From positions 1 to 49,421 of the IMG/VR virus record IMGVR_UViG_3300027980_000041: a stretch of 49,421 nucleotides of DNA; one strand, 5' to 3'. This DNA is from a virus. The position numbers and the translations under genes are program-made. Positions 6,556 to 42,172 of the stretch are shown here, in pieces; position 1 is the stretch's first letter; each line of letters opens with the position of its first letter. The notes beneath the pieces are model-generated. The model saw only the letters and a program-made list of their open reading frames with translations, was not told where the DNA came from and did no database searches.

Positions 6556-7989
6556 TTATTCTTTCTCCTCATATTTAAATAAATTTTTAAAGATGTAGTA
6601 CATAATATCTACTATTATGCTATTTCCAAATAATTTGAATAAAACACTATCACTAAATCCAATCTCAATTAACTTATCAATATCTTCATCACTCACACCC
6701 ATTAATCTACCAGCTTCTTTAGGTGTTAACTTTCTAATTTTTAATGGTTCTTCTTCTTTTACAATAAAGCTGCTACTTGTTGTAGTTCCATTTAAAGTAG
6801 GACATTTTTCTTTGAATACTCTATTACCCTTGTTATATCCATTAGGGAAAGAAATATCAGCCACATCTCCTACATTAAATTCATCTACAATATCACTATC
6901 AACATATCGTTTGATGTTCCCATCTTGAGTAATCATATCAGCTTGAACTTTAGTGAATGTACTTTTACGTTCAAAATAATCATCGATGCTTTTATCAACA
7001 TCGTATGAGTTAACAATAAAGTTATCGTTTGCTTGTGAACCACCACTTGTAGTAACAGTACCAGCTACACTATCACAATCTAAATCGTGCAAATTATTAG
7101 TTGCATTAATATGATGTGAACCTTGTTTAGTTCTTGACATAATATAATCAATCATTGCATCACTCAAATAATATTTTTCATCTACATCTTCTTCAACAAA
7201 ATCTTTTAGTTTCAATTCTAAATCAAAAGGTTTTGGTTCGTTATAATAATGACCATCAAAATATTCTTTATCTATTAACAACAAGAATACTCTATTTCTA
7301 GTTTGAGGTATACTATAATCAGATCCTTTTAAAGTCATAGGGATTACCTCGTATTCAAGTTTTTCTAACTCTTGTTTAAATTGTTTGAACATACCTATAT
7401 GTTTTTTATCTATAATTCCAGTAACATTTTCAAATAGACCAAACAAAGGTTTTTTATTATGTTCTTTTAATTCTTTTAACACTCTAACACTTTCAAAAGT
7501 CAAACTACCTTTAAGACTATCAAAGCCACCACGATTACCACCTATTGAGAACTCTTGACAAGGTGTAGAAAATGTAAACAATTGTACATAAGGTAAATCC
7601 TCACCTTTAACATTGAACACATTAACTTTATTTTTTGTTAGATGATGTGCTAAGTATAATTGTTTTAACTTTTGTTCTTTCAACCTCTTAATGTTAACTT
7701 CCTTTTCATTCTTCCAATATCCAAAAGGGATTAAAAATTCTTGCATCTCTTCTTTAGTTGGGAACTTAAACTTCTTCATCACATCTAGTAAATGATGATG
7801 CAATGTTGCGTGTGCAATTGTAGCTTCCATATCAATTTCAACAATATAACTTCTTGATACATTCATACCCAACTTTTTAATTGCTAACATTTGGCTACCA
7901 TAACCACTAAATAATTCTCCAATAGCAATATTGTCTTCCCAATGCGTTAAAGGTTCGTTCATCATCTCGAAAATATTAAGTTGTTCCAC
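6556..7989 (-). CDS. C5-cytosine DNA methyltransferase
   Basis: 477 residues, GTG start eight bases after AAGGAGA. The family motifs appear in order: SAM-binding ELFSGYGSQ (25-33), catalytic TPCQ with C144 (142-145), ENV (187-189), QTRNRV (229-234), a target-recognition region, and GNSI (455-458). The enzyme transfers a methyl group from SAM to carbon 5 of cytosine in a specific DNA site. No restriction endonuclease is adjacent, so it is probably an orphan methyltransferase that protects phage DNA from host restriction. It shares an operon with the XRE gene just upstream. Confidence 0.93.
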   Translation of the reverse strand: MEQLNIFEMMNEPLTHWEDNIAIGELFSGYGSQMLAIKKLGMNVSRSYIVEIDMEATIAHATLHHHLLDVMKKFKFPTKEEMQEFLIPFGYWKNEKEVNIKRLKEQKLKQLYLAHHLTKNKVNVFNVKGEDLPYVQLFTFSTPCQEFSIGGNRGGFDSLKGSLTFESVRVLKELKEHNKKPLFGLFENVTGIIDKKHIGMFKQFKQELEKLEYEVIPMTLKGSDYSIPQTRNRVFLLLIDKEYFDGHYYNEPKPFDLELKLKDFVEEDVDEKYYLSDAMIDYIMSRTKQGSHHINATNNLHDLDCDSVAGTVTTSGGSQANDNFIVNSYDVDKSIDDYFERKSTFTKVQADMITQDGNIKRYVDSDIVDEFNVGDVADISFPNGYNKGNRVFKEKCPTLNGTTTSSSFIVKEEEPLKIRKLTPKEAGRLMGVSDEDIDKLIEIGFSDSVLFKLFGNSIIVDIMYYIFKNLFKYEEKE

Positions 7990-17052: not shown

Positions 17053-17415
17053 ATGGCTGCTATAAGGTTAGAAGTAGAAAGTCCAAAGAAGATAGTGTCT
17101 GGGATATATAAATGGACCAATAATAAAAATGGGAAAGTATATATAGGAAAGGCCGAACACCTCTTAAAACGTAGAAAAAGGCATTTAACACTATATAAAA
17201 TGTATAATAAGAATAAAGTAGAACTAGAGGAAAGTAAGACGAACAAACGTTTGTATAATGCAATGATAGAAGATGGAGTAATGAATTTCAAGTTTGAGAT
17301 AATAGAGAGATGTGAGAATGCAGATTTAGATCTGAGAGAAGATTATTGGATTTGTGAATATAACTCAATCGAAGATGGATATAATATGATTGAAGCTCAA
17401 AATACGTTTGAATAA
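17053..17415 (+). CDS. Free-standing GIY-YIG endonuclease
   Basis: 120 residues with the full GIY-YIG core: GIY 17-19, YIG 30-32, R40, catalytic E96 in DLREDYWI, and N111 in GYNM. These metal-dependent nucleases cut DNA on one strand at a time; many are mobile homing enzymes. There is no C-terminal NUMOD or zinc-finger DNA-binding domain, so specificity is unclear. No intron is visible around it. A GGGGTAAACGT site precedes the ATG. It opens the rightward half of the genome and is flanked by an inverted pair of a 14-bp sequence. Confidence 0.88.
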   Translation: MAAIRLEVESPKKIVSGIYKWTNNKNGKVYIGKAEHLLKRRKRHLTLYKMYNKNKVELEESKTNKRLYNAMIEDGVMNFKFEIIERCENADLDLREDYWICEYNSIEDGYNMIEAQNTFE

Positions 17416-17665: not shown

Positions 17666-17741
17666 GCTGGATTAGTATAATTGGCATTACGACTGAATTG
17701 TAATCAGTAAGATGTAGGTTCGAGTCCTATGTCCAGCACCA
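17666..17741 (+). tRNA. tRNA-Thr(TGT)
   Basis: 76-base cloverleaf: acceptor GCTGGAT/GTCCAGC (one T-G pair), D-arm, anticodon stem ACTGA/TCAGT with loop ATTGTAA (anticodon TGT, U33, A37), T-arm GTAGG/CCTAT, discriminator A and encoded CCA. Reads ACA (and possibly ACN) threonine codons, common in this AT-rich genome. It starts two bases after the CCA of the previous tRNA-like gene, so the pair is likely one transcript. Confidence 0.88.
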
Positions 17742-19002: not shown

Positions 19003-19782
19003 ATGGCTAATTATTGTGACAAACCTTGCAAATATTTTGTAGAAAATGAATGTAACCATCCTGATTTCAAAAGGAATAAAATCTTTTTAGAAGAAGATGG
19101 AAAGAAATGTGGTGGTTTTACTCCTATCAAGGGATTGAATGATAAGACTGCTTTACAAAGAGCAAGGAACTTAATTAAAAAAGAAGAAAGAAAAGAAGAA
19201 ATGTTACAAAAGAAAGAAGAAGAAAAGGCTAAATATGAATTAACAATTCAAAAAATTAAAGAAGATGGATTTGATGCAAAAGATGGTTTTAATTACTTTT
19301 TCGATTTATCTTCAATAGAACAATATTATGTATGGGAAACTTTAGTTAAAAAAAGAAAGCCTTTAAATGTAATGCGTGAAGTAAATCAAGAATTAGGTAA
19401 AAGTTGTGAAGCCACAAATGTTAGAGCAAAGATTAGAAGATGGTCTATGCGACCAAACATTATGAAAGCAACTGGAGAAATAACTAATATTATTGCTAAG
19501 AAATCTAAACAAAAATTAGATTTAATAGTTGATGAAATGGTAGATAAAGTTGCTGAAGCTGTTGGTAATATTGATATCGAACATACTATGCCTGAAGATG
19601 TTATTAGAATGGGTAAAGATGTATTAGATATGAGAAATAAGATACAAGATAAAAATGCTGCTATTAATATACAAGATAGTGTATTAGTATTCGGTGATGG
19701 TTCATCATTTGGAGATATTTATAAAAAGAACTCTTATGATTTACCAACCGAAGTTATTGAAGCAGATTTTGAGGAAAGGTGA
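19003..19782 (+). CDS. Small terminase subunit (TerS)
   Basis: 259 residues from the ATG after AGAGGTGATGAT (MANYCDKPCKYF). An N-terminal cysteine cluster (CDKPCKYFVENECNHPD) suggests a zinc knuckle. The middle contains a helix-turn-helix region (FYVWETLVKKRKPLNVMREVNQ-like) and a helical oligomerisation segment up to residue 200. Its position before TerL and the overall layout support TerS, which recognises packaging sites on phage DNA and loads TerL. Gene order is unusual, since a giant gene separates it from TerL. The stop overlaps the ribosome site of the next gene. Confidence 0.7.
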   Translation: MANYCDKPCKYFVENECNHPDFKRNKIFLEEDGKKCGGFTPIKGLNDKTALQRARNLIKKEERKEEMLQKKEEEKAKYELTIQKIKEDGFDAKDGFNYFFDLSSIEQYYVWETLVKKRKPLNVMREVNQELGKSCEATNVRAKIRRWSMRPNIMKATGEITNIIAKKSKQKLDLIVDEMVDKVAEAVGNIDIEHTMPEDVIRMGKDVLDMRNKIQDKNAAINIQDSVLVFGDGSSFGDIYKKNSYDLPTEVIEADFEER

Positions 19783-19787
19783 TAAGT

Positions 19788-22700
19788 ATGGGAAATGGAA
19801 ATGAAAATTTAAATAAAGAGTTTGCAGAAAAGACTAGTATATTAACTCAAGAACAAGTTACTAGTCCAACTGGATTAAATAACTTTTTTGTAAGTGTATT
19901 AAAAGATAGTACATTTAATTATGAACCACAAGATAAGATTTATACTCCTACTGAACAACTAATAGATAACTATGCACAAGCAAGAACTGTTGAGTTACAG
20001 TTCCAAAAAGATTATGGTTATTCTGATACTGATATGGCTATCTTTAGATATCAACAAGATAACTTTGCTAAGTTTCAACAACAAGGTTATAAAATGGATA
20101 CAAACGAGTATCAAACTGCTATATCTGCTTATCAAATAGATAATCAAGCATTTCATAATTTAAGTAATAATTATAATTACTTTGCAACTGCTGGGGATAA
20201 TGACCCGTTTGTTGAATTAACTAATCGTTATATGAATGATTTAAATGGATTAACTGATGAAGAATTTAATGAATGGTATAGTAAATTAAGTCCACTTCAA
20301 AAATACCAATTAGAAGCATCTGGATTTGGTGATACTCAAAAGATTAAAAATACTTTAATTGGTGCAGATTTAAAACGTGCTGCAGATGATGGTGATGTTG
20401 AAAAGGTAGATGATTTTTTTGGAGAACACGCAAAAACTGGTATAGCTAGTATTGCTATTGCTGGTATCTTAACTCCTGAACCTCTTACTACTATTGGTGG
20501 ATTAATAACTTTAGGTGTAGCTGGTATTGGTGGTTTTCTAGGTTCAATAGGATTAGAAAAGGCCGCAGAAGAAGAAATACCAGTATTAAAAGATATGGAT
20601 AATGCAGTTAAACATTTAAGAAATGCATTATTCAATACTACTATTGGCTCGATTGCAGGAACAATTGATATGGGTGGAACTTTAATTAGTTATGCTACAA
20701 CTGGAATATATAATACAATTACTGGTCAAGATATAGATACTAAAGATAGTTATATTTATAAACCATTTGATTTTGCAAGTGGATTAATTGATGGTCTTAA
20801 TGAAAGTCTTCAAACTAAAGATGTAAAAGAATATTCAGGACTTGAAAAAGTATTTTATCAAGGTATACCTCAAGTTATGGGTTCTATTTCGGGTTATATG
20901 TTTTTAGGTAGTGCTATGGCTAAAATCCCGGGTATGTCTGGTGAAGTTAAAATGGGTAATTCATTTGTCAATGCATTATTAGGTGGTAGTAAGGCCGAAC
21001 TTGCAACTAGAACAATGATTTCAATGAGTGAGGGTAATGATGTATTTAACAATGCTAAAGCACAAGGAATAGATGATAATAAAGCAATAACTGGTGCATT
21101 AATGAGTATGGGTGGAAACTGGGCATTGTTAGCTGGTACTGGTGCTATTCCGGGTAAAGTTACTCGTGGAACTAATAAAACATTTGGTAATTTAAATGCA
21201 ACACAATTATTAAAAACTATTAGTGCTGATGCAGCTCTAGAGGGTATAGAAGAGGTAGGACAATTATTAATTAGTGATATTGCTAATATAACTACTGGCT
21301 CTCAACAAGAGTTTACTGAAGCACAACAATATATAGAAACTGGTCTATATGGTATGTTTGGTGGTATGTTTGGTGGAGGTATTGAAACATTTAATGTATC
21401 TAAAACAATAAATAAAACATATGACCAGATCTTACAAGACCAACCAATAGGTAATCAAGTTAGTATTGAACAAATTAAAAATGAATATATTGCTAAAGGT
21501 GATAGTCAAATACAAGCAAAAGATAAAGCAATTAACTTTGTTTTAGAAAATGGTATTGATAATCAAGTAGCAGCTAAACTTTATAGGAACTTACTATTTA
21601 CTGCTGGTGAGGGTTTTGTTGAGGGTTATAAAGTATTCGAAGATTATAAAACAAAAGTGGACCAACTAGCAAAAGAGAACTTTGAAAAAGAAGGTAAAAC
21701 TCCTAATGCTAAAGAACTTGAAGCAGAAGTAATTAAAATAATTAGTAATGATTATTCACAAGATACTTTCTATAAAATGGCAGATGAACAAAATAAAGAA
21801 TTAATCAATAAGATTGATTTACAAAATCAAGAAAAACTAGAAAGTATATCTGTTAATGATAGAGTTGATTTAATAAATGAAACTAGAACTGTTTTAAATA
21901 ATATAGTTAGAGATGAAAATGTTGCAGATTGGAATGGAGAAAAATTCGATTCTCCTAAACGTTATGGACTCCAAAAAATAAAAGGTGAAATAGTAAGTTC
22001 TACATTTGATAAGAAACATAATAAGTTCAATATATTAAAACGTATGAATAACTATAATATTACTCCAACAGACTTTACAATGATGCAACAACGTGAAGAG
22101 GGTTCTTGGGTTGATAGTACACAAGTTAGAAATATGAATAATGAGATTACTAATATTAAAAAGACTTTAGATGATGTTGTTGGTACTACTAAAAAACGTA
22201 TTGATAAGTTTAATAAAGAAAATAAGTTAGAATCAAAAGATTATGAATATATGTATGAACAAGGAATCTTGAATAAAGAAGATTATATCTCTTTATTAAA
22301 GAAAACTGATTTAGAAACAACAGATCAAGAAATTCAAAATATATTAAATATATCAAATGAAATTGAAAGTTTTTATAACAAATTATCTAAAGTTGATAAT
22401 GTATTAGATATGGAAAAGGATTATAAAAAGTTACAAAATTTTATTGATAAAACATTTGAAACACAAACTGAATATGATGAATTTATTGAGAAGAATAAAA
22501 AGTTTATTAGTAAAAAAGCATTAAGTAGTTTTGAAAACTTCAAACAAACTTTTGAAAATGCTAAGAAAGAACAAGCACTCGAAATAGAAAGAGTCGCTAA
22601 AGAAAAGGCTGTTCAAAAGGCCGAAGAGAAACGTTTGGCTAAAGAGAAAGAAGTTGAAAAAGATGCGAGTTTGGAAAAAGAAATCACTAAGAAACAAGAA

Positions 22701-25700
22701 CAAATTAATAAGCTCGAAGAAAAAGAAAAGAAACAAAAACAAAAGATAGTTGAAGAGAAACCTAATACTAAAATTTCTGAAAAAGAGTTTATCGAAAAGA
22801 CTCAAGATGAAGATAAGAAAAAGGTTATCAAGAAAACTAAGCAACATAAAAGTGTAAAAGTAAGTCAAGTTGCTAATAAAGTTGAAGTAGATGAAAAGGT
22901 TAAGAAAGAATTAAATCTTAAAGATAAGATGAATATTATTAAAGATAAGTTCTCATTACCTATTAAAGCTAATACAAAATACTTAAATCAAGTTAGAAGC
23001 AATTTAGAACAAAATCCTGATGTGGATAAGTTTGTAGTTGGATATTCAGTTGAACAAGATACATTTAAAATATTACCAGTTGAGACAACTCAAAAGAAAG
23101 CAAAGAATGATATTAAAGAAAAACTTAATGGTCCTAAAGATTATAAAACTAAAGTTATTTCAAGGGATAAAATTAATGATGATGTTATTAATGCTAATCC
23201 TAAGAATAAGAAACAAGTAAAAGAATCTATTGAAAAGAATGAAGCATTAAGGAAAAGTGAAGTATCTAAAGGGTTTAATAATTCTAATTCAACTAAATTA
23301 GATAATCAAATTGATAAAAAGATTAATGAATCTATAAAGGTAACTAAAGAATTAAAACCTAAAAGAGATGATCTGCTTGAAGAAATTAAAGTTAAAGAAG
23401 CAAAAGCAAATAAATATAGAAGCGATATAAAAACATATATGGCCGATATTGCTAAAAATGGGCCCGACAAAAATATCGAGTTTAGACTTAACTTTAGTGA
23501 AAGTGCATTAAGGAATGTAATAGGAGATATAGACTTATTAAAAGCACAACATAAAGTTGCTAATGAGAAAACTATTGATACTGATATGAGTATTGCTTAT
23601 GAGAGTGAACAAGGTATTACTCCTAAAGTATTGAAAAAGAATATTAAGAAGATACCGGGTAGAGTTACAAACTTTATTGCTACATTAAATAAAACGTTAC
23701 CATCTAATGCACAATTAACAGTTGTGTTTGATGAAACATTAGAAAAGAATGAAGCTGGTAAATATGAAAATGGTGTTATTTATTTAAATCCAAATTCTAA
23801 AACTCAATTTCTAGATACTGTTACTCACGAACTCTTTCATCATTTAGAAAGAGGAACTAGTAAAGAACTAGATAAGTTTATGAATAGTGTTGAAGATTAT
23901 TTAACTCAAAAAGGTGTATATGAAGAACAATTAAATTCAATTATGAAAAGATATGTTCCTGTTTACGAAGCTAAAGGTAGAGAGTTTACCGAAGAAAATG
24001 CTAGAAGTGAAATAGTTGCTAACTTTGTAAAAGATGAATTATTTAAACAAGAAGCATATACAAGTGGTAAAAAGAAAGGGCAAACTTATTTTGTTAATGA
24101 TACATTATTAAAAGATATTACTAAAGATAGTAGTGTTGCAAGAAAAGTTTTTATTTGGCTTAATCAAGCTCTAGGTTATTTAAGAAAAAGTCAATTAAGT
24201 CCTAATGAAATAAAATTAAGAATAGCATTTGAAGATGCTAAAGACCACTTTGAAAGTTTAGTTAGAAAAGAAAAGGCAATAGTTGAAAAACGTGGCGAAA
24301 AGTATTTACTAGAAGTTGATGAAGAAATTGAAACATTCAATGATGCAATTGATTTGGAGAAGAAAAGTAATACAGATCAAATGAAAGAATTAGTAATAGT
24401 TAATGCTAAAGCAAGTAAAAAAGAAACAGTTAGCATAACTGAAAAATTAAAGAATTGGTGGAGTGAACATTCTACTAAATATGGAGTTATAGCACATTTA
24501 AATTCACTTGTATCTTCTGCAGCTAATGTTTATCAAAACAAATTAAACAAGAATACTAAACAAACACAAGAACTAGTATCTAGAATATTTGGTGGAATGA
24601 ATGCAGATGATTATGTAACATTCTCAACTTATTTATTAACAAGAAGTATGTTTGAAGATACTCAAAATTATGATATGAAAGATTTACCTTTTGAAGATAT
24701 TATAAAATTAGAAGATGGTCAAACATATGATGAAGAAGTAGTTAAGATGTTAAAACAACTACAACAAGAGATTGATGCAAGTGAGTTTTTAACTAATAAA
24801 TTAGATATGTATGATTATGTTAAAGATACAACTGATGCAATGCTAATTGCTAAGAACTGGGAAGTTCGTGGTGAAGATCTGTCTGGTAAATTAAATCGTG
24901 CCAATTACTTTAAAAATCAAGTATTAAGAGAATTTGATACATATCAAAAAGATAAAGGTGCATATAAACAAAATGGTAGAATGAAAGGATTTATTGATTT
25001 CTACGAGAAAAAAGGTACTAGAAAAGCAATAAATACTGATGTAATTGGATTGTTTGCTTTAACTCATTTGACTGCTAAGAATGAAATAACTGCTTTAGAG
25101 TTTGTCGAAGAAGTTAAAACACTAGATGCTAAAAATGAAGTATTAAGTGGAATCGAAGAAGAATTAGTTGATGTTAAAGATAAAGTTATTAAAGATATTG
25201 CTAATAGTGAAAATGAAGAAACATTTAAAAGAATGACTTCTATAATTGAAACTATAATATCTAATCCAGAAATACCAAATATTGATAAAGGTATTTTAAG
25301 TGCATATCTAGAAAACACTAATATTTATGATGGTACTGAAACTAATATTGTTCAAGAAATAGAAACTATTGTAAGTGATTACAAAGAAAATATTATTAAT
25401 AGAATCAAATCTTATGCCAAAGATGGTGTATATGACTTGTCTAAGGATTATAGAGATGTTATCAATTACTTCAACGGGAAACAAAGAAGTGTCTCAGAAA
25501 AGGATTTAGAGAGGTTTGCAAACTATGTTTATACTAACCCAAATATTCTAAATGGTAAAAACGAAAGTAAACATTTATTATATGCATTCGAAATTCAAAA
25601 TACATTAAACAACTTAGTTGAAGATGTTGGTTTAGAATATCTTGATGATGTTCAAATGATGATACCTGACGGACACGTTGTTACTGATGGTTATGGGAAT

Positions 25701-27731
25701 ATATTAGGACAAAATGCTAATGAGAAACAAGTTGGTAAATTAGGAAGTATGTTCTTGAGTGATTTAGATAATATGGAATTTATGACTAAATCAATTATTA
25801 ATCAATTAATGTATAACGAAAATGAAACTGGGTATATATTAGATAATCTTAAAGATAATAAATTTATGATATTAGATAATCAAACAGCTAAGATAATTAA
25901 TGAAATGGTTAATCCAATTAGGTTGCCTGATAATGCTCTTAGAAAATTAACTAAAGTATTCAAACGTGGTGCATTATTTAGTCCTGAAAATATTATGAGA
26001 TTTACTAAGAATGCAATTGGTATGGACTTCTATCGTATTGCTTTAGAAAATCCACCTGCAGTATTAAGTGTTCCAGATGCATTTGGTTATGTTATGGAAA
26101 GATATACTGGTAAAGTTTCTAAGAAGATATCACCTGAAAGAAAAGCAGAATTAAATTCATTATGGAATGTATTTGAAGATGTTTATGGTGGTGGAGAAAT
26201 CTCATTCGAATTAGAAACTATGGGTAAAGATTTAGTGCCAGAACTTCATAAAGAATTAGAAGTAATGACTAAAAACTTAACTGGAGAAAAAGATTTAAAA
26301 ACAATTGGTGGAGTTGCAAATAAAGTATTCAAAAAAATGTTTGATTCTACTAAAAACTTTTCAAATCATAGAGAAGCTATCTTGCGTTTTGCTTATATGC
26401 TTGATGCAGTTAAAAGAGTTGAAAGTGGAACTGGATTAAATTATGGTGCATCTAATAAAAAAGAAATTAGTGCTTTAATGCAAGAAGCCAATAAGTTTGA
26501 GGGTAATAAAAAGAAAGAAGTTCAATTAAGAGCATTAGCTTTAATGGCAAACCAAAACTTTATTAACTATTCTGAGAGTTCTAAATTTACTATGAAAATG
26601 TCTCAAGGTGGAGTACCTTTCGTTGCTTTCCAAGAGGGTAACTTAAAACTACATTATAGACAATTAAATAATATATTTAGTGATATGTTTAGTAGACAAT
26701 CATCTATGAGAAGAAGAATAGGTGGTGCTTCAAGAGGTGCTGCTGCAATGATGATTATGTCTAATATTGCACAAACTGGTTGGAACTTATTAGCAAGAGC
26801 ATTAGGTATTGCTCCAGAAGATGAAGAAATACCTGAATACTTAAAAACATTAAGTTATACAATACCGGGAACAGATATAAATATAGATGGTTATACATTA
26901 ATGCCAACTCCATTTGGTTCTATTATTTTAAATAAAGCAAATGGTATGCTTGAATTATTAGATTATTTACCTTTCTCAAATGAAGCAAAAGGAACACCAC
27001 CAGTAGAACACATATTAAATAAAGGTATTTCTATGGCTAATCCATTTTATAAAATGCCATTAGAATTAATGCAAGGTGTTAATTATTATGGTGCTGTACC
27101 AGCTCCTATTGATAAACAATGGAATATGTTAGACCACGCAATTGAAAAAGTTGGTAATACATTAGGGTTTGGTAAAACTACTCAAAGTGCAATTAATGTT
27201 GCAAAAGGTGTGCCAACTAAATATCACGAAAGTGCTAATTCAGTTCCAGAAGCATTATTACATTTTGGTATAGGTACTGCATCAGGAATATTTGATAATT
27301 CATTTAAACGAATTTCAAGTGGAGAAAAAACTTCATATACTACAATGATAAGTAAACAATATGATTACTTAGGAGATGTACTAGATAGACCTGACTATGG
27401 AACAATTGTTGGTAGTGAGAAAACTGAAAATGCTAGATTAAAAGATGCAATTAAAAAAGGTTTCAAATTTGGTGACAATGAATATATGATGCGAAATATG
27501 GTCCAATTAATTACTAATCTTGAAGAAGATGGTAAAACTTCAAAACAGATCAAGAATGAAGTTAAACAAACATTGAAACAAAGTTTGTCTATAACTGGTA
27601 AGATACCTCAAAAAAATATGGACCATTATTTGAATGAATATTTAAATGAAACTGAAAAACACTTATTCCTAGAAGCAATGGAATATGAGAAACGTATGTT
27701 TGGTGAGTTCTATGGGTTAATTTATGATTAA
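19788..27731 (+). CDS. Giant 2647-residue protein with zinc protease motif
   Basis: Start is the ATG at 19788 after AAAGGTGATAAGT. Order: a mixed N-terminal region; glycine-rich hydrophobic stretches at about residues 217-254 and 365-395; helical parts; a lysine/glutamate coiled coil at about 920-1025; VTHELFHHLERG with the zinc motif HExxH at 1347-1351 and a possible third ligand E1408; a long middle; and a C-terminal region with RRIGGASRGAAAMMIMSNIA, as in large polyvalent phage proteins. No RNA polymerase motifs are seen. The layout resembles podovirus ejection or internal virion proteins that enter the host with the DNA. The protease could process itself, a virion protein or a host target. 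Confidence 0.75.
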   Translation: MGNGNENLNKEFAEKTSILTQEQVTSPTGLNNFFVSVLKDSTFNYEPQDKIYTPTEQLIDNYAQARTVELQFQKDYGYSDTDMAIFRYQQDNFAKFQQQGYKMDTNEYQTAISAYQIDNQAFHNLSNNYNYFATAGDNDPFVELTNRYMNDLNGLTDEEFNEWYSKLSPLQKYQLEASGFGDTQKIKNTLIGADLKRAADDGDVEKVDDFFGEHAKTGIASIAIAGILTPEPLTTIGGLITLGVAGIGGFLGSIGLEKAAEEEIPVLKDMDNAVKHLRNALFNTTIGSIAGTIDMGGTLISYATTGIYNTITGQDIDTKDSYIYKPFDFASGLIDGLNESLQTKDVKEYSGLEKVFYQGIPQVMGSISGYMFLGSAMAKIPGMSGEVKMGNSFVNALLGGSKAELATRTMISMSEGNDVFNNAKAQGIDDNKAITGALMSMGGNWALLAGTGAIPGKVTRGTNKTFGNLNATQLLKTISADAALEGIEEVGQLLISDIANITTGSQQEFTEAQQYIETGLYGMFGGMFGGGIETFNVSKTINKTYDQILQDQPIGNQVSIEQIKNEYIAKGDSQIQAKDKAINFVLENGIDNQVAAKLYRNLLFTAGEGFVEGYKVFEDYKTKVDQLAKENFEKEGKTPNAKELEAEVIKIISNDYSQDTFYKMADEQNKELINKIDLQNQEKLESISVNDRVDLINETRTVLNNIVRDENVADWNGEKFDSPKRYGLQKIKGEIVSSTFDKKHNKFNILKRMNNYNITPTDFTMMQQREEGSWVDSTQVRNMNNEITNIKKTLDDVVGTTKKRIDKFNKENKLESKDYEYMYEQGILNKEDYISLLKKTDLETTDQEIQNILNISNEIESFYNKLSKVDNVLDMEKDYKKLQNFIDKTFETQTEYDEFIEKNKKFISKKALSSFENFKQTFENAKKEQALEIERVAKEKAVQKAEEKRLAKEKEVEKDASLEKEITKKQEQINKLEEKEKKQKQKIVEEKPNTKISEKEFIEKTQDEDKKKVIKKTKQHKSVKVSQVANKVEVDEKVKKELNLKDKMNIIKDKFSLPIKANTKYLNQVRSNLEQNPDVDKFVVGYSVEQDTFKILPVETTQKKAKNDIKEKLNGPKDYKTKVISRDKINDDVINANPKNKKQVKESIEKNEALRKSEVSKGFNNSNSTKLDNQIDKKINESIKVTKELKPKRDDLLEEIKVKEAKANKYRSDIKTYMADIAKNGPDKNIEFRLNFSESALRNVIGDIDLLKAQHKVANEKTIDTDMSIAYESEQGITPKVLKKNIKKIPGRVTNFIATLNKTLPSNAQLTVVFDETLEKNEAGKYENGVIYLNPNSKTQFLDTVTHELFHHLERGTSKELDKFMNSVEDYLTQKGVYEEQLNSIMKRYVPVYEAKGREFTEENARSEIVANFVKDELFKQEAYTSGKKKGQTYFVNDTLLKDITKDSSVARKVFIWLNQALGYLRKSQLSPNEIKLRIAFEDAKDHFESLVRKEKAIVEKRGEKYLLEVDEEIETFNDAIDLEKKSNTDQMKELVIVNAKASKKETVSITEKLKNWWSEHSTKYGVIAHLNSLVSSAANVYQNKLNKNTKQTQELVSRIFGGMNADDYVTFSTYLLTRSMFEDTQNYDMKDLPFEDIIKLEDGQTYDEEVVKMLKQLQQEIDASEFLTNKLDMYDYVKDTTDAMLIAKNWEVRGEDLSGKLNRANYFKNQVLREFDTYQKDKGAYKQNGRMKGFIDFYEKKGTRKAINTDVIGLFALTHLTAKNEITALEFVEEVKTLDAKNEVLSGIEEELVDVKDKVIKDIANSENEETFKRMTSIIETIISNPEIPNIDKGILSAYLENTNIYDGTETNIVQEIETIVSDYKENIINRIKSYAKDGVYDLSKDYRDVINYFNGKQRSVSEKDLERFANYVYTNPNILNGKNESKHLLYAFEIQNTLNNLVEDVGLEYLDDVQMMIPDGHVVTDGYGNILGQNANEKQVGKLGSMFLSDLDNMEFMTKSIINQLMYNENETGYILDNLKDNKFMILDNQTAKIINEMVNPIRLPDNALRKLTKVFKRGALFSPENIMRFTKNAIGMDFYRIALENPPAVLSVPDAFGYVMERYTGKVSKKISPERKAELNSLWNVFEDVYGGGEISFELETMGKDLVPELHKELEVMTKNLTGEKDLKTIGGVANKVFKKMFDSTKNFSNHREAILRFAYMLDAVKRVESGTGLNYGASNKKEISALMQEANKFEGNKKKEVQLRALALMANQNFINYSESSKFTMKMSQGGVPFVAFQEGNLKLHYRQLNNIFSDMFSRQSSMRRRIGGASRGAAAMMIMSNIAQTGWNLLARALGIAPEDEEIPEYLKTLSYTIPGTDINIDGYTLMPTPFGSIILNKANGMLELLDYLPFSNEAKGTPPVEHILNKGISMANPFYKMPLELMQGVNYYGAVPAPIDKQWNMLDHAIEKVGNTLGFGKTTQSAINVAKGVPTKYHESANSVPEALLHFGIGTASGIFDNSFKRISSGEKTSYTTMISKQYDYLGDVLDRPDYGTIVGSEKTENARLKDAIKKGFKFGDNEYMMRNMVQLITNLEEDGKTSKQIKNEVKQTLKQSLSITGKIPQKNMDHYLNEYLNETEKHLFLEAMEYEKRMFGEFYGLIYD

Positions 27732-27763: not shown

Positions 27764-29269
27764 ATGAGTGTGGTTCTTAATTTTACGCCATTTGAAAGAC
27801 AAGAAGAATTTTTAGTATCAACTGAAAAAAGAATACTTTATGGAGGTAGTGCTGGTGGTGGTAAATCTGCAGCACTAGTTATGAAAGCGTTTTTATATGC
27901 TTCTACTTTTAAAGGAGCTCACGTTGGATTATTTCGTGAAAGTATTAAACAAGCAAAAGAAAGTTTGTATTATAAATGGTTAGAGTTTATTCCAGAAAAA
28001 GATCCGAAAACAGGAAGACGTATTTGGACTTGGAGAGCAAGTGAAAACCAATTTATAATTGAAGCAACTGGAAGTCGTGTATCATTGAATTATATGGAGA
28101 GTTATGGAGATGCCCAAAAATATCAAGGGGTTGAATTTGATGTTATTGGTATAGACGAATTAACAAAACACGATAAAATGACCATAGATTTCATTATTAC
28201 TCGTTTAAGAAGTGGTAAAGGTTATCCAACACAATTTCTAGGAACTTCTAATCCGGGTTCTAAAGGACACTTATGGGTTAAAAAATTATTTATTGATGCA
28301 ACTGATAATGGTACTAAAAGAGTTATTAAGAAAGTTAAAAATAAATTCGGTAAAATTTTACAAACATCATATAGATATATTAAATCAACCTTATATGATA
28401 ATCCATATTTAGTTGGATCTGATTATGAAGCAACCTTGTTGGAAATGCCAGAACATTTACAAAGAATGTTTTTATATGGGGATTGGGATATTGCAGATGG
28501 TCAATTCTTAACTAACTTCCAACCTAAAGAACATATCTATGAACCGGGTGAAATAACTATTGAGTCTCATTGGAAATGTAATTTACATATGGACTGGGGT
28601 CATAATGATGCATTCAAAGTAGGGTTCACATTCCACGATGAAGATGGATTTGCATTTACTGATAAAGTTTTACAAGGGAATAGAATGAACTTAGAAGATG
28701 TATGTGATGAAATATTAAAAGGTATCTCAACATATGGATTTGATTTGAATATACAAGGAATAGTATTACCACACGATATGTTTAGACAGAAAGATACATA
28801 TGTTCGTGATGGTAAAGGTGATATTATAGGTTCTACATCTGCAGAAATAGTAGAAACATTAACTGGATTAACAATTTTAAGAGCTCCAACAAGACCCGGA
28901 GTTAGAGTTGAGGGTTGGAGAAAAGTACATAGACTTATGTATTTTAATCGAGATAAATTAGAAAAACAATATGAAGAGGGATTAATTGATTTTAAAGATA
29001 TTAGACCAAAGTGGAGAATTAATAGTCAATGTGTTGAAACAATAGAAGAAATTAAAACTATTGTAACAGACCCGAATAATCCAGAAGATATCCAACCTAA
29101 TCAAGAAGACCACGGTGTAGATATGATTAGATACTATGCAATCACAGTATTTGATAATGAAACATCAACTAGACCAAAAGAAAAAGAAAATAAAGATTGT
29201 ATGGCTTATGTAAAGAAACAATTAGAAAATAAAAAAGGTATGCAAGATTTATCTCCTTTATATGGTTAG
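27764..29269 (+). CDS. terL: Large terminase subunit (TerL)
   Basis: 501 residues. Walker A GGSAGGGKS (27-35), Walker B VIGIDE (D131, E132), coupling residues in FLGTSNPGSKG, then an RNase H-like nuclease domain starting CNLHMDWGHND (D277) and ending DHGVDMIRYY. The ATPase pumps DNA into the procapsid; the nuclease cuts concatemers. Strong RBS AAAGGAGTGAGTAT. Confidence 0.95.
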   Translation: MSVVLNFTPFERQEEFLVSTEKRILYGGSAGGGKSAALVMKAFLYASTFKGAHVGLFRESIKQAKESLYYKWLEFIPEKDPKTGRRIWTWRASENQFIIEATGSRVSLNYMESYGDAQKYQGVEFDVIGIDELTKHDKMTIDFIITRLRSGKGYPTQFLGTSNPGSKGHLWVKKLFIDATDNGTKRVIKKVKNKFGKILQTSYRYIKSTLYDNPYLVGSDYEATLLEMPEHLQRMFLYGDWDIADGQFLTNFQPKEHIYEPGEITIESHWKCNLHMDWGHNDAFKVGFTFHDEDGFAFTDKVLQGNRMNLEDVCDEILKGISTYGFDLNIQGIVLPHDMFRQKDTYVRDGKGDIIGSTSAEIVETLTGLTILRAPTRPGVRVEGWRKVHRLMYFNRDKLEKQYEEGLIDFKDIRPKWRINSQCVETIEEIKTIVTDPNNPEDIQPNQEDHGVDMIRYYAITVFDNETSTRPKEKENKDCMAYVKKQLENKKGMQDLSPLYG

Positions 29270-30146: not shown

Positions 30147-30158
30147 TAGGTGATGAAT

Positions 30159-32177
30159 ATGGCTTATGGTACAAATAGTAAAAGAATGAAAGAAAATAAA
30201 AGCACAACCAACAATGAGGTTGGTGCTTTTATTAATGATTTGTATAATGAAGCACAAATGAAAGTTAGACCTCAACAATATTCTTGGCTATTACAACTAG
30301 CCTATGTATCAGGTGACCAATATAAAACCTTTGATAGTAATAACTTTAAAATAACAGAGTTATCAAAAGCATATGGTTATGAAGAAAGAGAAGTATTTAA
30401 TAAAATGCGAACTATAAGAAATACTTTCTTAGCTCGTATTACTTTAAATAAACCATTACCGTGGGCTGAACCTAAATCTTTAAAAGATAAAGATAAAAAG
30501 GTTGCTAAAATAACTAATGCAGTTATACAAAATGCTTGGGAAACTTTAGAAATAGGTGACAAATATGATACTATTGGTGAATATCTAACTGATTATGGTA
30601 GTGCTTTCTTAAAAGTTGGTTGGGATAATACTTTAGGTAAAAAAATTGTAAGTAGAGTCGATGTTTTATTAGATGAATTAGGAAATTCTAATTATTTAAA
30701 CGAGGATTATAAACAAAAACTTCAACAAGGATTATTATATAAGAAAAGTATTTATGAGGGTGATGTAACAACATCTGTTATATCTCCATTTGAAATCTAT
30801 GTAGATAATCCAACAAGAAGAAATTTAGAAGAAAGTCCGTGGCTTTTACACGTTAGAGCGTTTCCAAAAGAAGTTGTTAAAAAAGTATATATGTTAGAAG
30901 ATAGTGATATCAAAGATGAAATTACTAACTCGATAACTTTACAAACTGGTGCAATGAGTTATGGTATCGGTTATTATTCAGGTTCATATGGATATAAAAC
31001 CAATCAATTGGAAGATGTTGTATCAGTAAAAGAATATTATGAAAGACCTACAAATGATTTCCCAAATGGTAGAATGATTATTTCAGTAGGTGACAAAGTA
31101 GTTTATTATGATGAATTACCTTACAATATAGGTAGAGATGGTAAAAAAGATATACCATTCATTAGAATGATTGCAACTCCTGAAACTGGTAACTTTTATG
31201 GTGCTACACCTTTAGCAGATCTTAGACCTTTACAAAGAAGATATAATGCTGTTCGTAATAGAGCTGCAGAAGCATTAAATAGAAAAGCAATAGGACAATG
31301 GATAGCATATGAGGGTAGTTTACATTCTCAAACTAGAATTACTAATAAACCCGGAAATGTTATTATAGTTAAAAATGGTAAAGCTGCACCAGTTCGTGTT
31401 CAAGATAATGCACAAACTGGAGAGTTTAGAGCAGAAAATCAAGACCTTAATCAAGAGTTTTATAGTTTAAGTGGTTTAAATATGATGTCAATTGAGGGTA
31501 ATATATCAAGTGCTATTCGTAGTGCAACTCAAATGAGTATGTTAACTGAACAAGAAGATAATCGTATTAGATTAACTACAAAGAGTATGGCTAAAGGTAT
31601 TGAGAAGTGGGCAAAATTCATTATTAGATTATACCAACAATATACTAATGGAAGTAGATTTGTTAAATTTAATGATGGTTGGGAAGATGGAATTGAGTGG
31701 GATAAGAATTTAATTAATGATAAAATTGCAATTAAGAATATTAGTCACTTAGCAATTCAACCGGCCCAAAGACAACAAATGATTTTAGACTTAACTAATC
31801 TAGGATTATTTAGTGAACAAAACGCTTATGGTGTAGATGGTACTAAAAACTTATTAGAAGCATTAGATTTAAAATATATGGAGTTGGACCATTTAATACC
31901 ATTCAAAAAAGATTTAGATAAAGTAAAACGTGAAAATAGAAGAATACTTAGTATGCAAGCTATTGTAGTAGATGATTTAGACAATCACGCAATTCATTTA
32001 AAAGAACATAGAGAATTAATAATAAGTGAAGAGTGGGAAGATTTTATAAGAGAACTAGCAACTCAAGATTTAGAAAAGGCTAAACAAATAGAACTTATGG
32101 CTAGAGAACATATCAAACAACATAAGACACAAATACAAGTTGCACAAATGCAACAAAATATTGCAATGTCTCAATAA
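30159..32177 (+). CDS. Portal protein
   Basis: About 672 residues (MAYGTNSK), ATG after AGGTGATGAAT. Length, location after TerL and before scaffold and capsid, and regions such as FYGATPLADLRPLQRRYNAVRNR and the helical C-terminus with SIEGNISSAIRSATQMSMLTEQEDN fit the T7/P22-type portal of podoviruses, a dodecameric ring through which DNA passes. The 5' end encodes an intragenic hairpin (30198-30230). A 12-base tandem duplication ATGTCTCAATAA lies at the stop codon. Confidence 0.88.
   Translation: MAYGTNSKRMKENKSTTNNEVGAFINDLYNEAQMKVRPQQYSWLLQLAYVSGDQYKTFDSNNFKITELSKAYGYEEREVFNKMRTIRNTFLARITLNKPLPWAEPKSLKDKDKKVAKITNAVIQNAWETLEIGDKYDTIGEYLTDYGSAFLKVGWDNTLGKKIVSRVDVLLDELGNSNYLNEDYKQKLQQGLLYKKSIYEGDVTTSVISPFEIYVDNPTRRNLEESPWLLHVRAFPKEVVKKVYMLEDSDIKDEITNSITLQTGAMSYGIGYYSGSYGYKTNQLEDVVSVKEYYERPTNDFPNGRMIISVGDKVVYYDELPYNIGRDGKKDIPFIRMIATPETGNFYGATPLADLRPLQRRYNAVRNRAAEALNRKAIGQWIAYEGSLHSQTRITNKPGNVIIVKNGKAAPVRVQDNAQTGEFRAENQDLNQEFYSLSGLNMMSIEGNISSAIRSATQMSMLTEQEDNRIRLTTKSMAKGIEKWAKFIIRLYQQYTNGSRFVKFNDGWEDGIEWDKNLINDKIAIKNISHLAIQPAQRQQMILDLTNLGLFSEQNAYGVDGTKNLLEALDLKYMELDHLIPFKKDLDKVKRENRRILSMQAIVVDDLDNHAIHLKEHRELIISEEWEDFIRELATQDLEKAKQIELMAREHIKQHKTQIQVAQMQQNIAMSQ
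30198..30230 (+). terminator. Intragenic terminator-like hairpin in portal gene
   Basis: AAAAGC (198-203) pairs with GCTTTT (225-230) and ACCAAC (207-212) with GTTGGT (219-224), with a 3-base bulge and 6-base loop, inside codons 14-24 of the portal gene. It looks like a terminator but is followed by ATTAATG rather than a run of T, so any attenuation would be partial. Confidence 0.35.
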
Positions 32178-33178: not shown

Positions 33179-34474
33179 ATGTTAGGCGATGGAGCAAAAT
33201 TTAACTTACAAGATATTCAAAACTCTCTATACGAATTTTATTTACCTACGTTTAGAGAAAATACGAACAATGATAGTCACTATTTCTTAAATGAATTGAA
33301 ATCAGTTGGTTATAATAAAATTTCAGGTAAATTTGCTGTTTACGGATTAAGAAAAGGTAAACAGGGTGGTGCTGGTGCAATTGCAGATGGTGCAAATTAT
33401 AAATCACCAAGTACTACTGGTAAAGAAAGACAAATCGTTAATATGAAAAACTTAACAGTTCAAGGAGCAATTGATTTAAAAACAATTCACGCTGGAACTG
33501 ATGATGGTGCATTTGAAGATTTATTAGCTGATGAAATGGAAACTGCTTATGAAGCTGCTAAAGATGATATGGCTAGACAAGTAGTTACTGGTGAAGATGG
33601 TGTAATTGATAAATTTACAGCCTTTGACCCATTAACTCCGGGTAGTGGAACTCACCCATCTGGATTAACATTACCACTTGCATTAACTACTACAACTCCA
33701 AAAACGTTACCAGTTGAAAATACAGATCGTTATGACATCGGTTTAGTTATTGATATTTATACAGCTTCTACTTTAAAAGCAGATAATATTGAAATTGTAG
33801 ATGTAGACCAAGATTTACAAACAATTAGTGTTGTTAGTACTGTTGATACAACTACTGGTGGTACTTATGCAGTAGCCGAAGGTGATGTATTTGTAACTAA
33901 TGGTAGTTTCGGAATTGGTATTACTGGTATTGAAGATGCATTAGCAAAAGATGCTAATACTTATCACGGAATTGATAGAACATCTAACAAGTGGTATAAA
34001 GCAACTAAACGTGATGGTGGAAATGCTTTATTAACTGAAAGATTTTTAAGAGGTGCTAAAGATAGCGTTGATATTCGTTCAGGAAAACCAATTGATTTAC
34101 TTACTGCTAGACATTTAGTAGTACAAGGATATGAAGATGAACTACAAGTATTCAAACAATATAATAATGCTGTTCAAGATGGTATGAATGGTGCAGTTAC
34201 ATTAGCTGGTGGTTATTCTTACTTAACATTTGATAATATGCCATTCGTTAAAGATAGATTTATGACTAAGAATAAGTGTTATGGTTTATCAAAACAAACT
34301 TGGTTCAAACCAACTTATCAAGAGTGGACTTACGATGATTTCGATGGAAATGTATTCAAGTTTACTGCAAGTCAAAAATATAACTTTAGAATGTATGAGT
34401 TCTGTAATATGAATACAGATTCTCCTAGAGCGAACTTTGTAATTAATAACGTTCTTGAAGATGTAGATGCTTAG
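33179..34474 (+). CDS. Major capsid protein
   Basis: 431 residues, starting MLGDGAKFNLQDIQNSLYEF after AAAAGGAGCGAACTTAT. Regions rich in glycine and charged residues, a long beta-rich middle with TTTPKTLPVENTDRYDIGLV, and a C-terminal strand end with RFMTKNKCYGLSKQTWFKP suit an HK97-fold capsid protein. It is between scaffold and connectors and closed by a terminator, as expected for a highly expressed product. The insertion around residues 150-230 could be a surface domain; assignment rests on position and general form. Confidence 0.82.
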   Translation: MLGDGAKFNLQDIQNSLYEFYLPTFRENTNNDSHYFLNELKSVGYNKISGKFAVYGLRKGKQGGAGAIADGANYKSPSTTGKERQIVNMKNLTVQGAIDLKTIHAGTDDGAFEDLLADEMETAYEAAKDDMARQVVTGEDGVIDKFTAFDPLTPGSGTHPSGLTLPLALTTTTPKTLPVENTDRYDIGLVIDIYTASTLKADNIEIVDVDQDLQTISVVSTVDTTTGGTYAVAEGDVFVTNGSFGIGITGIEDALAKDANTYHGIDRTSNKWYKATKRDGGNALLTERFLRGAKDSVDIRSGKPIDLLTARHLVVQGYEDELQVFKQYNNAVQDGMNGAVTLAGGYSYLTFDNMPFVKDRFMTKNKCYGLSKQTWFKPTYQEWTYDDFDGNVFKFTASQKYNFRMYEFCNMNTDSPRANFVINNVLEDVDA

Positions 34475-38587: not shown

Positions 38588-38611
38588 TGAATATTGAAAG
38601 GAGAAAAAAAT

Positions 38612-41600
38612 ATGGCAAAAGTAGATAGAAATTCGTTTTCTGATTTTGATGGTAAACAATCTAGTAAAACTCCTGTTGTCGCAAAAGATTTAAATCAAGA
38701 TAGAACGGTCTTGGCTAATGCTGTTGATGATAATCAAGACCAAATCACTATTTTGACTGGTGGAGATTTAAAAGAAAAAGCAAATTTAGAAGATGTAATA
38801 TTGAATGATTTTATTGCAAGCTATGAAGCAACACTTGACTTATTTACTGGAGATAAGTTTGTTATTCAAGGTGGAGCCGACCCAGATAAAAATTTTGTTG
38901 TTGATTTTAATACTGTAAGGCAAAAAATATCAGGAGCAGTTTTCTTTGGACCAACTGATGGTAGTGGTGTGTTTGCTACTAGAACACAATTATTTACTGA
39001 AGCAGCATTAAGACCGGGAGAATTAGTTGATGGTGCGTTTGCATTTGTTACTAATGCAGAGGGTGATGGAAATAATGATAGTACTTGGTATTATTCTTCT
39101 ATAAATGAAGAATTTCAAAATAGTAATACTCCTCAAAGTGCAACAGTAAACTTTGTTCTAGGTATAACTGGTGATATTGCTGATTTAGATACAACTGATA
39201 AAACTAATTTAGTAGTAGCAATTAATGAAACTTTTGGAATAGCAAGTACAAATGCAACAAATATAGCAACAAATACTGATGATATAACGCAAAACGAATT
39301 AGATATAGGACAGAATGCAGATGCGATATCGACTAATCAAACTAATATTTCTAATTTACAAACTGCAACTACTGATTTAGACACTAGAATGACTCAAGCC
39401 GAAGCTGATATTATTGCTTTAGATGGTAGAGTTGGTGATAATGATACTGATATTGCACAAAATGCAAGTGATATCACTCAATTACAAGCTGATATTTTAG
39501 ATAAATTAGACGAAGTTATTATACAAGATAGTGGTGTTCAAAGAGGAACTGGAATTAACACTATTAATTTTGACGCTAATTTAGGTGTAACAGATAATGG
39601 TGGAGGGAAAGTTACGATAACTGCTGTTGGTGGAACTGGTGGAGAAGTTGTTCAAACCATAGTTGAAGTAGACCCATTAACTACACCGGTGGCTATTCCT
39701 ACTTCTCCAACAATTGTTCCTGTTATTGTTAAAGAAATAACTAATGATCCGTCAGTTATTACAACAAATGGTTCAAATAATCCTGTACTAGTTGTGGCAG
39801 GAGATTATACATTAGATAGTTCATCGCAACTTAGAAATGAAAGTATGGCAAGTGTTGCAAATATAACTATTGAAACTTTATTTAATGGAATTGTTGCTAA
39901 TACCATTAATTTAACGATACCGGAATCTATTGCTGGAAATGATGGTATAATAACATATTCTCCTACTAATATTTATACTGAACAAGCAATATTAGCTTTA
40001 ACTACTTTCCCTGTAACTATTACTGCTAGAGTAACTTCTGATGTTGTTGGAGCATTTATTGATTTTGCAACGGTAGCTGTAAGAACAACAACATCTGTTG
40101 ATGATGCTATGAGTAAAAGTATTTATGATACTAATTCGAATGGTAAAGTTGATAATGCTGATTATGATGGTAGTGGTACTAATTTCCTAACTAGTGATGA
40201 TAATACTCAAGATGCTATTACTTCTCTAGACACTCAATTAAATACAACTAATGTTAGATCTGTTGCTAATGAAAGTAATATTGATGATAACGCTAATAAT
40301 ATAAGTAATAATACTTCATCTATTGTTGTTACAAATAATAGGATAGATGAATTAGAAGCACAAACAGTACAAACAGCTAAAGTAACGGTTGACTTGACTA
40401 CACCAGATCTAACATTATTAGATGGTGTAGAACAAACTAGAATTGGTTTTACAAAGTCAAATGTAACTAATGCTGCTATACTAGACTTTGATGATATTTT
40501 AGAAGAGTTTATTATTAATCAAAATGGTTTATATACGGCTAATAGATTATTTACATTTACTACAACTGGTGCTGAAGTTAATGATAGAATAGTTACTGTT
40601 AATAGATATAGAGTTAGTGATGATGCTTTATTAGGAACTACTGATTATATTGTACCAAAAAATTCTGTTAATTTTATTATAAATGAACCAGCAGTCGAAC
40701 AAGATGTAACTGGAGCTCCTGTTAGAATTTATTTAGGGTTTGAATCTAATGGTGGAGATGTAATTTTAAACGATTATAATAGTACTGTTGAAACTATTAC
40801 TGGAGGTATTGCTTCTAGCAATATAGATATAGAAAATGATGAAAGTATTAGTGGTACATCAATTACTCAAAGAGAAACTAATATTGAATTTGTTAGTGAA
40901 ATTTCAAGCAACAATAATGATATTGGGAACTTGCAAAATTCTACGTCAGAAAATAAACAAGGTCACTTTATTAATCAAGCTGAAGTAGTTAAAACGATTG
41001 GTAACACTTCTACTGGTCAATTATATACAATGACTAGTGATGTTTTGCCAGTTCCATTTGTAGCGAGCAGAACAGCAGTTGGAGATGTAGGTTTTTTAAG
41101 TAGTGCATGGAACGCATATGATAATAACAACGGTACTAGTTCTGGCTGCACTTTTGTTGCAGATGCTGAAGGAATGGATAGTAAGATTGATTTAGGGGCG
41201 GGCAATACCTTCACACCTAAAGAAATGTTATTGAGGATAGGAAGTAATTTAGGGGGGACGGCTTCAATTACTATCACTTTTGAAGATGATTCTTCAAATA
41301 CAGAAATTGTTTATAGCAACGCCACAACTTCATTCAATACTGATATTGTAATACCAATTACTACCACAATAACTCCACGATTCATAACAACTAGAATCGT
41401 TAGAGCAGGAAGTGGTGGAACAGAATTTTATATCTTTAAGTCACAGGTGACTGAATGGTATATAGAACCACCTTTAATACAAAACTTAAAGGTTAAGATG
41501 AATGATGATAAATATACTGACGAGGATAATTATTTAATTAATTGTCAAATGGAAGATAGTCAAGATATGGAAAATCCTGTTTTTATACCAACCACTTTAG

Positions 41601-42172
41601 GTGTTTATTCCAAAGATGGTTTAGCTGAATTATTAGCACCAGTAGATTATGATGGTTTTGCAATTGGTAATAATCATAATGTTAAATTAAAAAGAGATAC
41701 CCCAAACAATAAAATAGAGCAAGTTTTTAATTATTCGGATAAATTCGGTAAAGTTGTAGCAAGTGCCACGGGATTTAGTGGCAGTGACAATGACATAATC
41801 GTTGATTTAGAACAATATGGAGTAGGTAGTTTTAAATTATACTTTTTTAACTTCACTTCGCCAACTTTAGTAAGATATGATTTAGGAGTAAGCAGTGCAG
41901 GTAGAAATGTAGATGCGAACGATAATCCAACTGCAAGGACTGATATGGTAGCGTATTCAACGCTAGGTTCTAGTGAAGTAGAAGTAGATGGAAGTCCTTT
42001 TATATTTGTAAACGCTAATCAAACTTTTATATCTAGTAATGTGATAGTAGCTACAACTTCACCCGCAAGCCAGGTTAAAAGAGAACTACTAGGTGCTAGT
42101 AAAATAATTTATCTTGCTTCGGACTATCTAACAGGTACATTTGATTGGATATTAGTTAAATTACACGATTAG
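38612..42172 (+). CDS. Tail fibre / receptor-binding protein
   Basis: 1186 residues from the ATG after GAAAGGAGAAAAAAAT. A short virion-binding N-terminus (MAKVDRNSFSDFDGKQ), a heptad-rich segment at about 200-310 (DITQNELDIGQNADAIS, NISNLQTATTDLDTRMTQAE), beta-rich domains, a second heptad stretch near 750-800, then a C-terminal region with SSAWNAYDNNNGTSSG and SKIDLGAGNTFTPKEMLLRI that recalls F5/8-type C carbohydrate-binding folds. Fibres of this type bind host surface sugars. The end of the gene has unusually GC-rich codons, as if acquired separately. Confidence 0.83.
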   Translation: MAKVDRNSFSDFDGKQSSKTPVVAKDLNQDRTVLANAVDDNQDQITILTGGDLKEKANLEDVILNDFIASYEATLDLFTGDKFVIQGGADPDKNFVVDFNTVRQKISGAVFFGPTDGSGVFATRTQLFTEAALRPGELVDGAFAFVTNAEGDGNNDSTWYYSSINEEFQNSNTPQSATVNFVLGITGDIADLDTTDKTNLVVAINETFGIASTNATNIATNTDDITQNELDIGQNADAISTNQTNISNLQTATTDLDTRMTQAEADIIALDGRVGDNDTDIAQNASDITQLQADILDKLDEVIIQDSGVQRGTGINTINFDANLGVTDNGGGKVTITAVGGTGGEVVQTIVEVDPLTTPVAIPTSPTIVPVIVKEITNDPSVITTNGSNNPVLVVAGDYTLDSSSQLRNESMASVANITIETLFNGIVANTINLTIPESIAGNDGIITYSPTNIYTEQAILALTTFPVTITARVTSDVVGAFIDFATVAVRTTTSVDDAMSKSIYDTNSNGKVDNADYDGSGTNFLTSDDNTQDAITSLDTQLNTTNVRSVANESNIDDNANNISNNTSSIVVTNNRIDELEAQTVQTAKVTVDLTTPDLTLLDGVEQTRIGFTKSNVTNAAILDFDDILEEFIINQNGLYTANRLFTFTTTGAEVNDRIVTVNRYRVSDDALLGTTDYIVPKNSVNFIINEPAVEQDVTGAPVRIYLGFESNGGDVILNDYNSTVETITGGIASSNIDIENDESISGTSITQRETNIEFVSEISSNNNDIGNLQNSTSENKQGHFINQAEVVKTIGNTSTGQLYTMTSDVLPVPFVASRTAVGDVGFLSSAWNAYDNNNGTSSGCTFVADAEGMDSKIDLGAGNTFTPKEMLLRIGSNLGGTASITITFEDDSSNTEIVYSNATTSFNTDIVIPITTTITPRFITTRIVRAGSGGTEFYIFKSQVTEWYIEPPLIQNLKVKMNDDKYTDEDNYLINCQMEDSQDMENPVFIPTTLGVYSKDGLAELLAPVDYDGFAIGNNHNVKLKRDTPNNKIEQVFNYSDKFGKVVASATGFSGSDNDIIVDLEQYGVGSFKLYFFNFTSPTLVRYDLGVSSAGRNVDANDNPTARTDMVAYSTLGSSEVEVDGSPFIFVNANQTFISSNVIVATTSPASQVKRELLGASKIIYLASDYLTGTFDWILVKLHD

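Follow-up and report, generated by a model that had tools for sequence, protein, structure and literature searches.

A giant phage protein with a predicted zincin domain, encoded directly upstream of the large terminase gene, and its kinship with polyvalent proteins

The giant gene and its neighbours

The window, by which we mean the whole analysed stretch of 49,421 nucleotides (IMG/VR record IMGVR_UViG_3300027980_000041), contains an unbroken frame of 2,647 codons at positions 19788-27731, encoding a protein of 2,647 aa that we call the giant. All features of this gene, as well as the terminase, portal and capsid genes around it, lie on the plus strand. The frame is preceded by a putative small terminase gene (TerS, 259 aa, 19003-19782) and followed by the gene of the large terminase TerL (27764-29269). 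Translation of the giant might also start from a GTG at 19779, but the ATG at 19788 is preferred because AGGAAAGGTGAT stands immediately 5´ of it; a Shine-Dalgarno-like AAAGGTGAT is located at 19775-19783, before this ATG.

The giant gene is real. The order TerS candidate, giant and TerL is kept in contig IMGVR_UViG_3300005609_000201, which was compared with window positions 16956-37728 (20.8 kb) and differs by three mismatches, all of them synonymous and all inside the giant. Another contig spans the 5´ half of the gene with a single change (T1439I), and a third one covers the 3´ half with no changes. An artefactual joined reading frame or an assembly error is ruled out by the second contig with its identical gene order. 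GC content of the gene is unremarkable. The 2647-residue frame reported in the preliminary description of this DNA thus stands, with a good ribosome-binding site and a second contig in agreement.

The same description placed the giant between TerS and TerL. The TerL side of this claim is secured by a PHROG match (E 9e-37), whereas the TerS label for 19003-19782 is unproven and was given for position and size: searches of Pfam, PHROG, tblastn and PDB returned no significant match, and the single-sequence model is all-helical but poor (pLDDT 42.6).

Further downstream lie genes of a P22/SU10-like portal protein (30150-32177; phrog_156), whose nearest relatives are found in Microbacterium phage Shocker and Arthrobacter phage Jasmine, and of a major capsid protein (33179-34474; phrog_14242), whose only INPHARED relatives are those of Jasmine-type Arthrobacter phages. 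A SU10-type adaptor is encoded in the window as well, beside the P22-type portal and capsid. TerL and portal protein used as single queries matched the same virus only. With TerL, portal and capsid present, the window carries the gene set of a phage with portal-terminase packaging.

The zincin domain

A zincin metallopeptidase domain is recognised at about residues 1295-1425 of the giant (23670-24062), on the grounds of homologues, PHROG matches, a structural model and a fold search. Its core is the motif HELFH (residues 1347-1351; 23826-23840), predicted to supply two zinc ligands and the general base. The motif is present once in the giant, and the chance expectation for HExxH in a protein of such composition is 0.02. 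The predicted third zinc ligand is E1408 (24009-24011), which is embedded in an ExxA[N/D] motif.

A search with slices of the protein led to a gut phage scaffold (L005) with a frame that stays open for 1,692 aa or more. When the aligned pair was scanned against IMG/VR, it retrieved the giant frame L014 and then L016-L019; these five frames measure 2,209 to 4,409 aa. The zincin matches to the six giants have E-values of 1e-7 (L014), 1e-6 (L016), 3e-6 (L005), 3e-6 (L017), 5e-5 (L018) and 1e-4 (L019), and significant similarity to the window protein is confined to residues about 1292-1422. In a six-row alignment of the window protein with five full-length homologues, G1324, Y1326, N1336, H1347, E1348, H1351, E1408 and A1411 are invariant. 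Both the HExxH at 1347-1351 and the possible third ligand E1408, pointed out earlier from the sequence, are therefore upheld by conservation. Residue 1412 is Asn in the window protein (ExxAN) and Asp in all five aligned homologues (ExxAD). Further members can be sought with the invariant set G-x-Y, N, HExxH and ExxA[D/N] as a signature. One more candidate, a 172 kb contig with a short GxYxxGVIYL match, was set aside; in standard code, its region is split into short frames.

Two of these homologues, L014 (5204-17068) and L017 (4403-17632), encode giants of 3,954 and 4,409 aa that are 45% alike over long stretches. The L014 giant has no significant Pfam match. Since its gene adjoins an integrase-like gene, L014 is probably a prophage.

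The isolated domain of the window protein matches phrog_87, annotated as "metallo-protease", at E 2.8e-5, and phrog_22978, a 3,513-residue PHROG of unknown function, at E 2.1e-8. The Pfam model MPTase-PolyVal (PF18818) gave no match to the giant at E up to 10. In the metallopeptidases of polyvalent proteins, HExxH is carried by one helix and the Glu ligand by the next (Iyer et al. 2017; PMC5512222), and the window domain has the same HExxH...Glu pattern.

Predicted structure of the domain

The AlphaFold model of the domain reaches a pLDDT of 61 overall and 75-88 around the active-site helix. Its elements follow in the order expected for a zincin: helix, strand, hairpin (three strands in all), then the helix with HExxH and, after additional helices, the one with E1408. 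HExxH lies on model helix 87-101 and E1408 on model helix 148-171. The preliminary description would have been refuted by HELFHH in a surface loop outside any metalloprotease fold; the model puts the motif on a helix that follows the three strands.

Foldseek alone found nothing significant for this model in the PDB. The best chains selected by VIA-align were mostly zincins, namely IrrE/PprI (Z 5.1), a DNA-protein cross-link repair protease (4.6), lethal factor (4.4), ArdC (4.1) and Wss1 (4.1), all of them modest scores with a maximum of 5.1. In BFVD, the best matches were largely podo- and myovirus proteins whose names mark them as polyvalent or as carriers of ART. Taken together, homology, the invariant ligands, the topology of the model and its structural neighbours point to a true zincin domain around the HELFHH motif. 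The domain looks intact and may be an active zinc-binding peptidase.

The remaining parts of the protein

Searches with the whole protein in Pfam, PHROG, PDB sequences and INPHARED gave nothing significant, and the matches described here came from slices. In whole-length comparison, the Jasmine giant was found at E 0.004 only and the Shocker giant gave nothing. Besides the one enzymatic domain, two modules are recognised, one towards each end, and no second enzymatic domain was recognised in the giant; residues 540-1290 and 1430-2160 received no domain assignment.

The N-terminal module is Gly/Ala-rich (residues about 388-530; 20949-21377) and common to other giant phage proteins. A profile built from Gly/Ala-rich N-terminal parts of five zincin-bearing giants matched it with 12.6 bits in hmmsearch, where none of 500 shuffles exceeded 8.7, and with 32.4 in hhalign, where 60 shuffles reached at most 17.7. 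The C-terminal module (residues 2168-2434; 26289-27089) appears related to C-termini of the Jasmine, Shocker and ctEqG8 giants. Their profile scored 16.7 bits in hmmsearch, where none of 500 shuffles exceeded 4.2, and 42 in hhalign, where 60 shuffles gave 22.5 and 49 genuine segments of 480 residues from other giants gave 28.3. The module regions were picked by eye, and of two C-terminal profiles tried, one (LPD38) failed. Both matches are good leads, short of proof. The C-terminal one fits the virion genes, for which Shocker and Jasmine provide the nearest portal proteins and Jasmine-type phages the only capsid matches.

The label LPD38 for the C-terminus was rejected. The order of motifs looks alike by eye, but Pfam LPD38 (PF18857) has no match in the window and a profile of four LPD38-related giants did not score above shuffles. 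The C-terminal region of large polyvalent type that had been proposed therefore survives in part: it matches C-termini of podovirus giants and has no Pfam LPD family match. Among the zincin homologues, LPD38 exceeds the Pfam cut-off in L016 and L019, ART is also present in L019, and the L005 giant contains three LPD3 domains and one PBECR3, so that several of these giants are genuine polyvalent proteins.

As to the hydrophobic stretches and the coiled coil that had also been described, the Kyte-Doolittle scan shows one clear Gly/Ala/Ile-rich stretch (residues 218-254; 20439-20549) and no other passed the cut. The supposed coiled coil corresponds to a K/E-rich, presumably helical linker (residues about 880-1010; 22425-22817), which is not outstanding in a crude heptad count, so that the coiled coil is not strongly supported. 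A single-subunit RNA polymerase module of the N4 type found no match in Pfam, NCBIfam or PDB sequences. Pfam slice matches to DUF3939 (E 0.006), RSF (0.004) and Med23 (0.01) were taken as chance or coil effects, and a Marinitoga virus match (H45, E 4) and PhoH matches as chance.

Vibrio phage 1.211.A (L024, 12708-20855) encodes a 2,715-aa giant that contains HExxH (HEMAH, 1716), matches the N-terminal giant profile at E 8e-6 and is annotated only as N-6 adenine methylase. To judge by these two sequence features, the annotation hides a polyvalent-type protein.

Position of the gene compared with relatives

The gene of the giant comes after those of capsid and tail in the phages Jasmine, Casserole, Shocker, ctEqG8, Vibrio phage 1.211.A and Bacillus phage Palmer, and likewise in L016, L018, L019 and L036. 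The largest gene of ctLwi270 (1,416 aa), a candidate giant by its size, has the same placement. No TerL was recognised beside the giants of L014 and L017 within the stretch covered. In phage JC1, TerS and TerL are far apart as well, but the giant is encoded elsewhere (PMC9144972). Among the relatives compared, the window alone has its giant directly upstream of TerL, and this slot is unusual. The nearest structural relatives (L010, L011, L027) have giants that lack HExxH, so in comparison with them the window phage has a zincin and a differently placed giant gene.

The first scan of bacterial genomes found no homologue. The second one found an Oscillospiraceae contig that is identical to L018 across the giant, and also a Bacillales contig. 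Together with strong Shine-Dalgarno sites in the window, these host contigs of relatives hint at a Bacillota-like host.

Relation to known systems

The closest likeness is to the polyvalent proteins of Iyer et al. 2017 (PMC5512222). Shared with them are the huge size, a centrally placed HExxH...E zincin whose modelled elements follow in the same order, and a gene situated in the late structural block of a portal-terminase phage. The giant is a large protein whose zincin is homologous to those of the LPD3/PBECR3 protein L005 and the LPD38/ART protein L019. It differs in having neither a match to Pfam MPTase-PolyVal or LPD38 nor a recognised second enzyme, and in the position of its gene directly upstream of TerL. 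On these grounds it would be a very diverged giant of the polyvalent or ejection type.

Giants of the Jasmine type (Jasmine gp29, 1,803 aa; Shocker gp37, 1,743 aa; ctEqG8, 1,106 aa) probably have the C-terminal module in common with the window protein. In contrast to it, they lack HExxH and their genes follow the tail genes. Jasmine is a podovirus by microscopy (PMC5513430).

Giant proteins do occur in podovirus virions. For gp69 of JC1 (a DarB-like protein of the JC1/Bcep22 podovirus kind; 4,515 aa, with LPD38 and LPD3), 51 unique peptides were detected in CsCl-purified virions (PMC9144972). It is set beside the window giant by description, as a distantly comparable giant podovirus protein, and differs by methylase/helicase-like and transglycosylase domains. 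Virion RNA polymerase of coliphage N4 (about 3,500 aa) is ejected and contains a zincin-like C1 domain with HExxH (PMC12633501). The HExxH domain is what the two proteins have in common, whereas no RNA polymerase module was detected in the window giant. T7 gp16 and P22 gp16 resemble it in that two regions, set apart by a large body, are proposed to traverse the membrane (PMC8954989), a likeness that does not come from sequence; T7 gp16 differs by its length of 1,318 aa, its transglycosylase and the absence of a protease. The kind of protein is thus already known from Iyer et al. 2017 and from the LPD38 giant in JC1 virions, and the window giant is a remote variant, not a new kind of system.

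Proposed role of the giant

We consider it probable that the giant of this podovirus-like phage belongs to the polyvalent or ejection type, resides inside the virion and is ejected together with DNA, and that its zincin cuts after entry. The earlier suggestion of an ejected protein that brings an active metalloprotease into the host is plausible and fits a known class. The family of the zincin, its invariant ligands and the kinship of the end modules with giants from structural gene blocks of phages were computed; packaging, ejection, membrane insertion, catalysis and target are inferred. The giant would be expressed together with the late genes, be taken into the head and leave it along with DNA. 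The Gly/Ala-rich modules (388-530 and 2168-2434) are probably packed at the portal and would later insert into the host membrane or pass through it. In the central zincin (1295-1425), zinc would be bound by H1347, H1351 and E1408, with E1348 as general base, and the domain might then cut a peptide bond once entry has taken place. This bond could belong to the giant, whose parts would thereby be released, or to a protein of the host.

This reading is supported by the zincin homology of six giants, invariant ligands, the zincin-like order of elements in the model and its structural neighbours. It is also backed by polyvalent domains in L005, L016 and L019, end modules scoring above shuffles, virion peptides of JC1 gp69, and the P22-type portal and capsid with the SU10-type adaptor. 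It is weakened by the location of the gene outside the tail-end slot used by relatives, Asn at residue 1412, the moderate model (pLDDT 61), Z-scores of at most 5.1, and the lack of a second enzyme and of LPD38 or MPTase-PolyVal matches in Pfam.

A clearly less probable possibility is that the zincin acts in assembly. It would cut the giant or scaffold and head proteins ahead of packaging or while it proceeds; the head would then take up fragments only, and no active protease would reach the host. The same was proposed for P1 DdrB, which undergoes processing before it is packaged and was proposed to cut itself (Iyer et al., PMC5512222), and the giant gene lies among packaging genes, adjoining TerL. 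Since the N4 virion RNA polymerase with its HExxH domain is packaged uncut (PMC5512222), such domains need not act before packaging. By analogy with DdrB, the zincin may cut the giant itself, or else be cryptic.

Catalysis may be weakened because N1412 replaces the Asp of the homologues. One can imagine, with rather low probability, that the zincin has lost its catalytic function and that an ejected giant retains it for structural purposes; in favour of this stands Asn in the place where all five aligned homologues have Asp. However, all three ligands and the general base are retained despite divergence of the domain to below 35% identity.

Alternatively, the giant might be no part of the virion and instead assist the packaging motor, being made between the terminase subunits and acting together with them. 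The place of its gene, directly after putative TerS and directly upstream of TerL, suggests this; we regard it as very unlikely, because the modules of the giant have their relatives in giants encoded among structural genes rather than beside TerL, and because TerS itself is unproven. Slightly less probable still is a head-assembly zinc protease that is made between the terminase subunits and stays at the packaging vertex, which would cleave itself or a head protein once packaging ends and then become ejectable; if true, the protease would be a timer that links DNA packaging to loading of the ejection machine.

Returning to the ejected internal protein that we favor, the giant adds a remote branch to zincin-bearing phage giants, one that is invisible to Pfam and barely visible to PHROGs. 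The locus demonstrates that a zincin-bearing giant gene can occupy the slot directly before TerL instead of the ejection-protein slot. The question of self-cleavage versus cleavage of host proteins is addressable, for the whole class, on the short domain 1255-1480.

Other genes of the window

The end of the tail block (44220-45104) encodes a 294-aa Gln/Leu/Gly-rich protein with no family match, which could, judged by composition only, belong with small ejection proteins such as P22 gp7/gp20. A GroEL-like chaperonin (542 aa, Cpn60 E 4e-34) and an adjacent GroES (E 8e-12) are encoded on the minus strand at 45300-47307, where the virion gene block ends. Another minus-strand gene, located among the early genes (6556-7989), encodes a cytosine-5 DNA methyltransferase (TIGR00675 E 2e-42). 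The only tRNA gene, tRNA-Thr(TGT), is found at 17666-17741, 250 bp from a GIY-YIG homing-endonuclease-like gene (17053-17415; TIGR01453 E 2e-20).

In the tail-fibre-like gene (38594-42172), contig 3300005609_000201 of the same virus differs from the window at 18 positions within 57 bp (41699-41755), which amounts to seven amino-acid changes in residues 1036-1054, against three differences over the initial 21.5 kb of the comparison. The tail fibre may thus contain a local variable patch, at whose edge, exactly at window position 41698, a third contig terminates.
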